Positions 1-20,242 of a stretch of DNA of 51,655 bases are shown piece by piece. The notes under the pieces are model-generated. The model had not been told where the DNA came from. It did not search any database and saw only the letters and a program-made list of their open reading frames with translations. Made by a program: the position numbers and the translations under genes. Every line of letters begins with the position of its first letter. The first letter of the stretch is position 1. The DNA lies in NCBI GenBank assembly GCA_028823445.1, contig JAPKBH010000011.1:1-51655 (forward strand), read 5' to 3'. Source of the DNA: Acidimicrobiales bacterium (GTDB taxonomy: Bacteria; Actinomycetota; Acidimicrobiia; Acidimicrobiales; MedAcidi-G1).

Positions 1-60
1 TTGCATGTGTTAGGCCCGCCGCCAGCGTTCGTCCTGAGCCAGGATCAAACTCTCCATCAA
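1..60 (-). rRNA. rrs: 16S ribosomal RNA, 5' end only (partial)
   Basis: The reverse complement of 1-53 reads as the universal bacterial 16S 5' region: the 27F primer site AGAGTTTGATCCTGGCTCAG at 34-53, followed by GACGAACGCTGGCGGCGGGCC. Aligning that site to E. coli numbering puts mature base 1 near position 60. Only the first 60 bases are in the window, and the gene runs off the left edge. The GGCGGCGGGCCTAACACATG wording is typical of Actinobacteria and other phyla with a GGCGGC helix and is not diagnostic alone. The gene is transcribed leftward, so its promoter and leader lie at 61-510. Confidence 0.97.
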
Positions 61-480
61 AATCTCAAATGATTACCACCGAAGTGATAACCACCATCGA
101 ATCATGGTGTAACCGCCTTTCGGCGGCTTATTACACGAGTTTTTCAGTCAATGAAAACACCAATTCTCATTGACTAGGCTTCAGGACAAGAGCAGTTAAC
201 CGAAGTTAATTACTGCTGTCCGTCAGTGCTTGAATTAAATTTAGGGTCTGTCCAGCGACAACTCGCATCGTCGATGGACAGCCCGCACTGGCTATATTTC
301 GTCCTCTGTTCCGTTTTCAAAGAGCACACGATGACCGAAAGTCATCAGGCACACAAAACTCAATGAGCTTTGGTGGTGCCGTGGTTGCCGGCCGATTCGA
401 TCTTTAAAGATCTGCCGGTGGGCAACGCACTACGCTCGGTTAACCAAGCCGATTGGCTTTTGTCACCCGTGCGCCCCGCA
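61..480 (-). other. rRNA operon leader with serial hairpins
   Basis: This gene-free stretch lies between the 16S 5' end and the inferred rrn promoter. Read on the minus strand it contains a series of strong hairpins: 248-281 (CTGTCCA paired to TGGACAG, inner CGAC/GTCG), 184-221 (closed by a TTCG loop), 146-175 (9-bp perfect stem AGTCAATGA/TCATTGACT), 110-130 (CCGCC-GAAA-GGCGG) and 73-90 (TTCG loop). Such structures are usual in rRNA precursor leaders and may include one strand of the RNase III processing stem, but the partner 3' of 16S is outside the window. No convincing protein gene is present; the small open frames here have no start signal and cross the hairpins. Confidence 0.7.
314..346 (-). 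promoter_or_regulatory. rrn antitermination signals: boxB-like hairpin and boxA
   Basis: On the minus strand a small hairpin GATGAC-TTTCG-GTCATC (330-346) is followed three bases later by TGCTCTTTGAAAA (314-326). The second element is close to the rRNA boxA consensus TGCTCTTTAACA, and the order boxB then boxA is the one known from E. coli rrn leaders. BoxA is the site where NusB-NusE load onto the nascent RNA; nusB itself is at 41764-42183 in this window. The boxA match is strong. The hairpin's role as boxB is inferred from position only. Confidence 0.75.
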
Positions 481-17210: not shown

Positions 17211-17987
17211 TTATCGCCGTGACAAAGCATAAAGAGCGACCGAACCAGCCACGGCGACGTTCAGCGATTCGGCGTGACCAGAGGTGGGTATTTGTAATTG
17301 GCCGGCGCAAGCCGCTTGAACTTTAGTGGCCAGCCCACGCGGTTCGTTGCCTACAATGACCGCTACTGGCTGGCCGGTTGGCACCTCTTCGGGGGCGATA
17401 CCTTCTTCGGGTATCGCAGCCCAACAGGCATAGCCGGCTTCGGTTAAGGCCTGCACCGTTTCGAGGGGGTCCGGCAAGCAAACAACGGGGAGTCGAAATA
17501 ACGAACCGGCGCTGGCTCGCACCACTTTGGGGTTAAAGGGGTCGACCCCTCCGGCGAAAACCACGCCACTGGCGCCAAAAGATTCTGCCGATCGAATGAG
17601 TGTTCCAGCGTTGCCGGGGTCGGCTACCTCAGCCAGTACCAGCAAAAGCCCGCCAGTGACCGTTACGTCGGCCAGAGAAACCAGGTGTTCATCCAATACA
17701 GCCAGAGCTGGTTGGGGGTTGCGGGTGCTGGAAAGCGAAGAAAAAATTTGTTCGCTTACTTCAACCCACGGAACGTTTTTTTGGTTTAGCTCTTCAACGA
17801 ATTGTTCGCTGGTGGCCGATTCGGGCACCAACACTACCTCTACGCTGCGGCCTGCTTTAAGTGCTTCTCGGACCAATTTTGGCCCTTCGACAATGTAAAC
17901 CCCCTCGTCCCGGCGGGCCGAGCGCTGGCGAACCAGGCGTCGGACCCGCTGAACGAGCGTGCTTTTATCGCCGGCCCGGTTGATCAC
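17211..17987 (-). CDS. SpoU/TrmH-family rRNA 2'-O-methyltransferase
   Basis: SPOUT methyltransferases of this group methylate the 2'-OH of rRNA or tRNA using SAM bound in a knotted fold. The 258-residue protein has an N-terminal substrate-binding domain (about 1-95) and the three SpoU motifs: [16 protein letters not shown] near 125, [10 protein letters not shown] near 208, and [14 protein letters not shown] near 240. It resembles the RlmB/TsnR branch, and in many actinobacteria such a gene follows rplT. The GTG start overlaps the rplT stop. The exact target base is not predictable. Confidence 0.9.
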
Positions 17988-18550
17988 CGAGCAGCGTTAA
18001 TGGCGTCGATCAACTCGGCCTTACGAAGACCAGTAATCGACAAGTTCAACTCAGCAGCTACCTCTTTGAGTTCAGCTACGGTTTTAGACGACAAGTCATC
18101 ATCACCTGCTGCTTCTTCGGCAACCGAAGACTCGGGTGCAGATTCAGCCACCGGGGCAGTTTCCGCAACGGGGATAGCTTCAGAAGAAGCTTCGGGTGCA
18201 GGCGCTGCCGCAGCCAAAGCCACCAAAGAGGCAAAGGCCGCTTGATCGGTGACCGCAAGGTCAGCCAACATTTTACGGTCTACGGAAATACCCGCATTTT
18301 TAAGACCGTTGATGAAACGACTGTACGTCGTGTCGTGTTGACGGCAGGCTGCGTTGATGCGTTGAATCCACAAACGACGAAACTGGCCTTTGCGGGCCCG
18401 GCGGTCACGGAAGGCATAGTTGCCAGAGTGCATGACCTGTTCGTTTGCGGCGCGGAACGAACGGCTTTTGTTGCCGTAGTAGCCTTTCGCCTCTTTAAGT
18501 ATTGCGCGATGTTTTTTCTTACTATGTACTGCTCGTTTGACCCTGGCCAT
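17984..18550 (-). CDS. rplT: Ribosomal protein L20 with C-terminal Rho_N/SAP-like domain
   Basis: L20 binds 23S rRNA early in 50S assembly. Residues 1-115 are a normal L20 ([20 protein letters not shown], then [20 protein letters not shown]). Most L20 proteins stop there at about 115-125 residues; this one is 188. An Ala/Pro/Glu linker (about 116-152) is followed by a 35-residue helical module ([18 protein letters not shown], then [11 protein letters not shown]) that looks like the Rho N-terminal or SAP fold, a small nucleic-acid-binding helix-extended-helix unit. It is in frame with no sign of a frameshift. A good AGGAG precedes the ATG. Confidence 0.94.
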
Positions 18551-18621: not shown

Positions 18622-18816
18622 TCAGGTGTTGAGACGACTCCGAATTGAACGGTCGTCTGCTTTTGAAACGTCGCTTTCGCCAGAAAGGCGACGCTTGCGA
18701 CGGGCGGATTTCTTTTCTAAAAGGTGGCTACGGTTTTTACTGCGTTTCCGTAAGCGGCCTTTGCTGGTCACCTTGACTCGTTTTGCGAGCCCTCGGTGGG
18801 TTTTCATTTTCGGCAT
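18622..18816 (-). CDS. rpmI: Ribosomal protein L35
   Basis: This small basic 50S protein is 64 residues long and begins [20 protein letters not shown], the family hallmark. A strong AGAGGAG Shine-Dalgarno lies six bases before the ATG. The gene sits between infC and rplT in the universally common order. The 71-base gap to rplT contains no obvious terminator. Confidence 0.97.
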
Positions 18817-18835: not shown

Positions 18836-19552
18836 TTACGCAGTTTCTTCGGTTGTAGTTTCTTCGGCTGTCGTTTCTTCTGGTTTGACTGCCTCTTCGT
18901 TTTCGGTTGTTGTTTCTTGGGGTGCCGTTTCTTCTGTTGCGCCAGCCACTTCGTTTTCTGCTGTTACTTCTTCGGCTGCTACTTCTGCGGCTCGTTCGGT
19001 TTCTATCGCTACGGCTTCTTCACGTTGGCGGCGGGTTCCTTGCCCGGGAACCAGCACCATCACCATGTTGCGGCCATCCAATTTTGGGTAAATTTCTATG
19101 CGTCCAACATGTGCTACGGCATCAGCCACATCATCCAAGATGCGCCGACCCAGTTCAGGGTGCTGCTGTTCGCGGCCCCGGAACATGATGGTGACCTTTA
19201 CCTTGCTTCCTTCGCCGAGAAACTTTTCGACCTTGCTGGTTTTGGTGTTGAAGTCGCCAACCCCAATTTTGGGCCGGTACTTCATCTCTTTGACCGAAAC
19301 GGTGGTTGCTTTTTTACGAGCTTCCTTGGCTTTTTGGGACTGTTCGTACTTGAACTTTCCGTAGTCCATGATTCGGCAAACCGGTGGGTTTGCATTGTCG
19401 GCCACCTCAACAAGGTCAAGACCACTGTCTTGGGCCATGTTGAGGGCCTGAGCTAATGAACGGATTCCTATTTGTTCACCGTCTTGGCCGACTAAACGCA
19501 CCTCTCGAGAGCGGATGCGGTCATTTATTCGAGGTTCTTGTGGTGTTGCTAT
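18836..19552 (-). CDS. infC: Translation initiation factor IF-3 with AUA start and acidic tail
   Basis: IF3 checks start-codon pairing on the 30S subunit. The conserved N-terminal PRINDRIR element is upstream of the first ATG/GTG in frame, so translation must start earlier. The only plausible initiator between that element and the in-frame stop at 19559-19561 is ATA at 19550-19552, with AGGAG nine bases upstream. Non-standard starts (AUU in E. coli) are a known IF3 autoregulation device. The N-domain, linker and C-domain (CRIMDYGKF, MFRGREQQH) end near residue 171. A 67-residue Glu/Thr/Ala-rich acidic tail follows, which most IF3s lack. Total is 238 residues. Confidence 0.92.
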   Translation of the reverse strand: MATPQEPRINDRIRSREVRLVGQDGEQIGIRSLAQALNMAQDSGLDLVEVADNANPPVCRIMDYGKFKYEQSQKAKEARKKATTVSVKEMKYRPKIGVGDFNTKTSKVEKFLGEGSKVKVTIMFRGREQQHPELGRRILDDVADAVAHVGRIEIYPKLDGRNMVMVLVPGQGTRRQREEAVAIETERAAEVAAEEVTAENEVAGATEETAPQETTTENEEAVKPEETTAEETTTEETA

Positions 19553-19627
19553 TGCTCGTCACTCCTGTGTGTCACGCAGGTATTTCTCCTGGTGTGGTTG
19601 GGTATGACACCCGCTTGTTCGGTAACG

Positions 19628-19659
19628 AAAAAGGCGGGCGTCAAAAAGCCGACGCCCGC
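19628..19659 (-). terminator. Intrinsic terminator / attenuator in infC leader
   Basis: On the minus strand a perfect 9-bp stem GCGGGCGTC (19651-19659) / GACGCCCGC (19634-19642) with loop GGCTTTTT is followed by C and five T (19628-19632). It lies about 76 bases upstream of the infC start in the same orientation, and no gene ends just before it. Its likely role is premature termination of the infC-rpmI-rplT transcript, as in the L20- or IF3-controlled leaders known from other bacteria. Confidence 0.8.
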
Positions 19660-19760
19660 ACCGAACCACCAAAGGTAGTTGGTTTAAGAAACGACCGAGA
19701 CGCACCTTGGGTGGCTCGGTGGGGTTACCCCCGCTTTTCAATTCTGTTGTATTAATAAGA
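19660..19760 (-). promoter_or_regulatory. Structured 5' leader of the infC operon
   Basis: Upstream of the attenuator the minus strand can form GGGG-TAA-CCCC (about 19721-19732), ACCGAG/CTCGGT with inner CACC/GGTG (19694-19720) and AACCA/TGGTT (19664-19684). The segment GAGCCACC (19710-19717) can also pair with GGTGGTTC (19663-19670), giving an alternative fold that disrupts the two local hairpins. The promoter is uncertain: TACTCT with TTGTCT 19 bp upstream is the best seen. The ligand could be L20 or a ribosome signal; sequence alone does not say. Confidence 0.5.
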
Positions 19761-19816
19761 GTAGCAGCACATACCGTTGAGCAGACAAACCACCCCCATT
19801 TAACGAAAAGAGCATC

Positions 19817-20242
19817 ATGAGCACCCTGTGGACCCCAGACGGCGAACACCAAGTAGAGCCAGACACTTCCCCCACCACTCAAGACACGGAACTATCGCCC
19901 GAGGATCAAGAACGAGCGCAAGCCATGGCTGAGGATATGGCTGCGGCTCGCCAAAAGATCGCTCAAGTGCCGGCCTCCATGGTTGTCAACAACCACCTCA
20001 TGGGGTTTTTCGAACTGGCGGCTATCCATCTTTCGAACCAGCCACCTAACATGCCGGAAGCCGCTTTAGCAATTGACGCTTTGGGGGCAGTGGTAGACAA
20101 GCTTGCTGGCCGCCTCGGCGAAGACGAAGAAACCCTGCGAGATAGTTTGCAACAGATTCGTTTGGCCTACGTGGGCCTTGAACGCCAAAGCCAAGAAGAG
20201 GCCGCAGCCCCAGCAAGCGGTGAAGAGAAACCTGACGCTTAG
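19817..20242 (+). CDS. DUF1844 family protein
   Basis: The 141-residue protein has the conserved DUF1844 core (VVNNHLMGFFELAAIHLS near residue 55, then ALAIDALGAVVDKLAGRLG) between disordered acidic ends. The function of the family is not known to me; it is common in actinobacteria and other phyla, often beside infC. The gene is divergent from the infC leader. GAG in AAAAGAGCATC before the ATG may serve as the Shine-Dalgarno. Its stop overlaps that of hisG (TTAG, 20239-20242). Confidence 0.9.
   Translation: MSTLWTPDGEHQVEPDTSPTTQDTELSPEDQERAQAMAEDMAAARQKIAQVPASMVVNNHLMGFFELAAIHLSNQPPNMPEAALAIDALGAVVDKLAGRLGEDEETLRDSLQQIRLAYVGLERQSQEEAAAPASGEEKPDA

Follow-up and report, generated by a model that had tools for sequence, protein, structure and literature searches.

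In Bacillus subtilis, a terminator is promoted by ribosomal protein L20 (PMC10931766, in excerpt), and the infC leader of that organism stands behind the Rfam family RF00558, L20_leader. RNAs of this type are described as narrowly distributed, in Firmicutes (PMC6097659, in excerpt). The E. coli L20 protein recognises a long-range pseudoknot (PMC10931766, in excerpt) together with a hairpin in the rpmI-rplT operator, and it controls how the ribosomal protein genes, but not infC, are translated. The L20 r-leader of Deltaproteobacteria keeps an AA dimer and two G-C pairs (PMC7247131, in excerpt), in a scaffold that, compared by description, differs from the one presented below. No L20 leader named as such in Actinomycetota was found in the literature searched; regulation like that in B. 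subtilis has been suggested, by analogy, as a possibility for the M. tuberculosis infC 5' UTR, which is 326 nt long and whose UTR/CDS read ratios are 2.6 and 4.9 (PMC3207917, in excerpt). Scr1601 (Rfam RF02830), catalogued as an sRNA, is one of a group of Streptomyces RNAs whose expression has been confirmed (PMC8388888, in excerpt).

The RNA described here precedes infC-rpmI-rplT, the position typical of RF00558, in a 51,655-nucleotide stretch of Acidimicrobiales DNA (the window; features in Table 1). It shares with RF00558 the operon, an AAG-N-P1-C-ACC-P2-GGU core and a terminator downstream, and one model, R3, matches both. It differs in falling below the Rfam cut-off, in having an extra helix (P3) and a conserved C-G pair between bulges, and in a terminator loop that is paired to the 5' arm, a pairing that is not seen by eye in Paenibacillus or Laceyella. 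(In another of the Bacillota, Acidaminococcus, a 7-pair arm-loop match is visible, as in the window.) The E. coli operator is alike in its L20 operon, its long-range pseudoknot and, possibly, its similarity to the 23S site (PMC10931766, in excerpt), whereas the window element precedes infC and has a terminator at its end. What is new, as far as sequence comparison can tell, is the phylum, and the pseudoknot that would join 5' arm and terminator loop.

Table 1. Features of the infC leader and operon in the window, in the order of transcription
Feature	Position	Strand	Basis or remark
Extended -10-like element TGCTACTCT, presumed infC promoter	19758..19766	-	Sequence and order-level recurrence
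5' arm UUGAAAAGC, with invariant AAG 19734-19736	19733..19741	-	Pairs with terminator loop
P1 hairpin, GGGG-GUAA-CCCC	19721..19732	-	Pair counts, alignment A2
P2, ACCGAG 19715-19720 with CUCGGU 19694-19699; invariant CC/GG at its base	within 19694..19720	-	Compensatory changes at three pairs
Conserved pair between P2 and P3	C19714-G19701	-	
P3, CACC 19710-19713 with GGUG 19703-19706	within 19694..19720	-	Alignment
Spacer AACCAACUACCUUUGGUGGUU, own hairpin possible; overlaps alternative pairing	19664..19684	-	Sequence
3' partner of lineage-specific alternative pairing with 19710-19720	19660..19670	-	Window locus (L001) and L002 only
Intrinsic terminator hairpin, GC-rich, 9-bp stem 19651-19659/19634-19642	19634..19659	-	Sequence, consensus scan
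Terminator loop GGCUUUUU	19643-19650	-	Sequence
Partner of 5' arm, GCUUUUUGA	19641..19649	-	Sequence complementarity
Terminator T tract, TTTTT	19628..19632	-	Sequence
infC SD, AGGAG	19562-19566	-	Sequence; common to relatives
infC start codon AUA, non-canonical	19552-19550	-	Sequence; common to relatives
infC (IF3)	18836..19552	-	Pfam IF3_N and IF3_C
rpmI (L35)	18622..18816	-	Pfam Ribosomal_L35p
rplT (L20), presumed effector	17984..18550	-	Pfam Ribosomal_L20, SAP, Rho_N

A sequence-only reading of this DNA had proposed an attenuator-like leader of the operon, with a 9-bp hairpin and T run about 76 nt before infC and no upstream gene to terminate. Closer analysis bears this out: a conserved structure precedes infC, its position is class-wide, and a rho-independent terminator, of the kind that marks attenuators, is predicted ahead of the first gene, its T run ending (19628) 76 nt short of the AUA codon at 19552. 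Since the upstream gene, of the DUF1844 family, is divergent (19817, plus strand), there is no gene for the hairpin to terminate. A consensus scan finds 4 terminator-like sites in 19480-19900, the predicted terminator among them, where shuffled sequences give 0.7 +/- 0.8. Folding energy alone says little, since the plus strand here, too, is more stable than its shuffles (z -2.7). The hairpin is conserved in the relatives compared, and some loci have no recognisable terminator. In 40 of the 52 order-level loci with the core, an extended -10-like sequence, TGNTANNNT, precedes AAG by 17-25 nt (mostly 20-21 nt), so that the infC promoter most likely lies upstream of the hairpin; the same recurrence argues against a start downstream of it, which would have told against an attenuator.

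The operon has peculiarities of its own. L20 of the window bears a C-terminal SAP/Rho_N domain (Pfam; 17984-18550, minus strand), and similar tails are present in 6 of 6 listed same-genus loci with a readable stop (L001, L002, L003, L005, L006 and L008); 160 of 176 readable L20 proteins are at most 130 aa long. The genus seems to have fused a nucleic-acid-binding domain to the presumed leader-binding protein. Past IF3_C, IF3 continues in a long, acidic, E/T/A-rich tail (18836-19030, minus strand). A rough pattern count over 109 regions gives the infC start codons of relatives as approximately ATA 43, ATC 17 and ATT 6; the AUA start after a good SD sequence suggests translational self-control by IF3, added to the leader. 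A 16S rRNA gene is interrupted by the window start (1-60, minus strand). No 23S rRNA gene was found in the genome's own assembly, and the 23S copy of another genome (G038), used instead, contains AAGUGG, to be compared with AAGYGG of the leader; 23S mimicry by the leader is at most a lead.

The conserved core, AAG-N-P1-ACC-P2/P3-GGU, lies at 19694-19744, just upstream of the pairing and terminator region to which attention had previously been drawn. Upstream of infC, the 58 loci compared, which come from the same genus, family and order, show a shared succession of elements: the -10-like sequence, AAGYGGG...CCCACC, a six-pair P2, a conserved C opposite an NGN bulge, P3 and GGU(C), followed by a spacer to the terminator whose length varies freely. 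Model R1, built from alignment A2, detects the core in 53 of the 58; 23 of those 53 are its training rows. In A2 (23 sequences, left after 9 of the 32 rows of A1 were dropped because MAFFT had moved P2 by one column or because of a P3 variant), 98.3% of cells are paired, three P2 pairs change on both sides (CG, UA, AU and GC types), and the covariation score is 0.301 against 0.150 for shuffled and at most 0.196 for slid alignments. Base pairs do covary in Acidimicrobiia, as the sequence-only reading had proposed to check, in P2 of the core and in the arm-loop pairing. Pairing reaches 100% in alignment A6 (19 of 44 candidates dropped en route, 7 before A5 and 12 after), partly by selection, because the finder that picked its rows requires P1, ACC and GGU. 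Model R2, whose source alignment A4 was fitted to the structure of R1, matches the window at 19694-19744 with 57.1 bits. AAG and CC/GG are invariant in A2 and A6; the core thus has what appear to be the AA dimer and the two consecutive G-C pairs of L20 r-leaders, the identity of these residues being our reading of PMC7247131 (in excerpt).

Across 198 genomes of the class, all 41 R1 matches at E<1e-3 lie on the same strand and at most 600 nt upstream of IF3_N, as do, at E<1e-2, at least 47 of 49 matches, and, at E<=0.1, at least 60 of the 90 listed. R2, run on 396 genomes of the phylum at E<=0.1, matched 44 of them, 34 in the class and 10 outside it; the latter matches were rejected, none being near infC. 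With a looser core, AAG-N-P1-C-ACC-P2-GGU, 57 of 118 infC-upstream regions from outside the class score at least 5, and none of 590 first-order Markov shuffles does. Among named loci, the finder reports this core in Nocardioides, Nocardiopsis, Geodermatophilus, Brevibacterium, Slackia and Gordonibacter, and also in single MAGs of Hydrogenedentota, Abyssobacteria and Aquicultor. This finder, the stricter one, missed one Paenibacillus locus, L182, that R3 detects.

The sequence-only reading had found no resemblance to a motif that it could name; on this point it has to be revised, for the core resembles that of L20 leaders. The Rfam search that it recommended gives a divided answer: the whole RF00558 model (1-127) can be aligned to 19742-19620 with 26 bits (E 0.0042 for 381 nt and 4227 families), but the gathering score of 58.7 bits is not reached, and a search of the whole genome with fast filters yields no match at E<=10, although the short-stretch search gives one. 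That cut-off is strict even inside Bacillota, because only one of four loci, Laceyella L190 (65.9 bits), passes it; Acidaminococcus L184 scores 54.4 bits and the Paenibacillus loci L182 and L189 score 53.7 and 46.3. Outside the class, RF00558 matches 4 of 20 loci tested (L245, L246, L259 and L244; 42.3 to 25.8 bits). R3, trained on 25 out-of-class Actinomycetota only, matches all four Bacillota leaders (L184, 9.7e-7; L190, 1.8e-6; L189, 8.2e-6; L182, 6.3e-5) at the sites that RF00558 matches, as well as, at E<=1, 52 of the 58 order-level loci, with 51 matches at the sites that R1 matches; matches elsewhere are few (L027, L012, L173). On the window locus itself R3 is weak (16.2 bits, E 0.11 in the pooled search), and R2 at E<=1 does not reach the four Bacillota leaders. 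(L173, from a Thermoleophilia MAG, has a second R3 match at 130-178, plus strand, of 24.5 bits, some 770 nt upstream of its leader match.) Because R3 and RF00558 match the intermediates, the series from Bacillus-type leaders to the window appears continuous, with no single model strong at both ends. Judged in this way, the leader is an RNA of the same kind as RF00558, although it falls outside that family as curated, and L20 feedback control probably reaches a second large phylum, Actinomycetota.

Scr1601 fits into this series. RF02830 gives 102 bits in an out-of-class actinomycetote (L277, 127-286, minus strand), where the match starts before the AAG core and ends on the terminator upstream of infC; by these coordinates Scr1601 is the infC leader of that locus and contains an L20-type core. 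RF02830 has no match in the window at its gathering score, and spacer and terminator differ between the two RNAs. Scr1601 and the M. tuberculosis UTR, as far as the excerpted sources go, are independent hints of early stops in leaders of the phylum.

The invariant AAG closes a segment whose complement is found in the terminator loop, and changes in one partner are matched by changes in the other. The 7 pairs of the window, GAAAAGC/GCUUUUU, lie entirely inside the terminator loop; elsewhere the partners are GGAAAGC/GCUUUCC, GGGAAGC/GCUUCCC, CAGGAAGC/GCUUCCUG, AGAAGC/GCUUCU, CGGAAGC/GCUUCCG, ACGGAAGC/GCUUUCGU, AUAGAAAG/UUUUCUAU, GCGAAGU/ACUUCGC, GCAAAGU/GCUUUGC and GCAAGC/GCUUGC. Over 32 unique combinations, mean complementarity is 6.88, where permutation gives 5.85 (sd 0.18; p<=5e-5, 20,000 trials), with a null that ignores relatedness, the changes nevertheless occurring in many separate families, and with 6 of the 52 core loci omitted (L009, L018, L033, L046, L053 and L055) for an unclear terminator or a wrong hairpin pick. 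In the class, 47 of 110 unique loci score at least 6.5, where 12.4 are expected from region shuffles; in this test 11 loci had no core by the finder, and the count is lowered because the finder took a wrong AAG in some others (L005, L021, L042, L052 and L074, for example). Mismatches occur in L010, L014, L015, L017, L024 and L026, and outside the class the pairing of the arm with the terminator apex is weaker (10 of 59 loci score at least 6, 2.5 expected).

The leader is real, conserved and by all signs regulatory, and probably it is an autoregulatory L20-type RNA that works by transcription attenuation. Transcription would begin shortly before 19741. The L20 site, to which L20 in excess of free 23S rRNA would bind, would consist of the AAG-bearing 5' arm, P1, and P2, which has two invariant G-C pairs at its base. 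The 5' arm would pair with the terminator loop, the pseudoknot, stabilised by L20, would hold the terminator hairpin, and polymerase would stop before infC, so that less IF3, L35 and L20 is made. With L20 in short supply, the clamp would be loose and polymerase would read through. That L20 is the ligand, that the hairpin terminates, and the sign of the pseudoknot's effect are what we infer. A wider proposal is offered tentatively, as quite possible: that the L20 leader is old and multi-phylum (Bacillota, many branches of Actinomycetota, single Hydrogenedentota, Abyssobacteria and Aquicultor loci), and that in Actinomycetota it takes the form of a protein-clamped pseudoknot, in which the 5' end of the transcript is locked on the terminator loop with no competing antiterminator helix.

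The main rival reverses the sign. A free 5' arm would capture the emerging terminator loop and delay the hairpin, and L20 would free the loop from AAG and thereby let the terminator form. The arm does hold the AAG that L20 should contact, so that arm-loop pairing and L20 binding could exclude each other; the leaders were searched for another conserved antiterminator and none was found; and in three out-of-class loci (L231, L280 and L208) the arm reaches into the 3' arm of the terminator as well. In Acidimicrobiia, however, the partner is in the loop, and a stem of at least 6 bp flanks the paired segment in 42 of 68 loci (15% of control positions), so that the pairing need not open the terminator. 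Moreover, several families without a U tract (L018, L087 and L104, for example) keep the pairing, where an antiterminator would be purposeless, which suggests that it is part of a protein site instead. Antitermination is thus a doubtful alternative, and by analogy with B. subtilis and E. coli (PMC10931766, in excerpt) we prefer the reading in which L20 clamps the pseudoknot and the terminator is thereby stabilised.

The sequence-only reading had placed alternative folds elsewhere, in a pairing of 19710-19717 with 19663-19670. That pairing exists and is longer than was noted, ACCGAGCCACC (19710-19720) with GGUGGUUCGGU (19660-19670), 11 contiguous pairs that none of 300 shuffles equals, but the importance given to it has not stood up: it was rejected as a conserved switch because it is confined to the window and one of its seven same-genus relatives (L001 and L002, 2 of 8 loci), and at that length it occurs nowhere else. 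In the window it might still be a switch that destroys P2/P3, and with them the L20 site, and sets the default state; it does figure in the predicted minimum-energy fold. That fold also contains the terminator, the competitor of the 11-bp helix being P2/P3 and not the terminator stem, so that no antitermination would follow from it by itself, and we regard such a switch as improbable. The conserved element of the alternative-fold kind, to judge from the alignments, is the 5' arm with the terminator loop.

An unregulated constitutive hairpin, or the remnant terminator of another gene, is very improbable, in view of a strand with no upstream gene and of a structure conserved before one operon throughout the class. 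Ribosome-mediated attenuation through a leader peptide, for which a 107-codon minus-strand frame (19559-19882) does run open across the leader, is likewise very improbable, the likely start point leaving little room before AAG, and what is conserved being base pairs, with a spacer to the terminator that is free in length.

If a second phylum does have the same core, L20 feedback would rank among the widest-spread ribosomal leaders, Streptomyces Scr1601 would be explained as an infC leader, and the long infC 5' UTR of M. tuberculosis (PMC3207917, in excerpt) would fit. The covarying arm-loop pairing offers a simple and testable model for how a protein may drive a terminator; if the pseudoknot is indeed clamped by L20, a ribosomal protein and a terminator would be directly coupled, with no antiterminator helix to compete.
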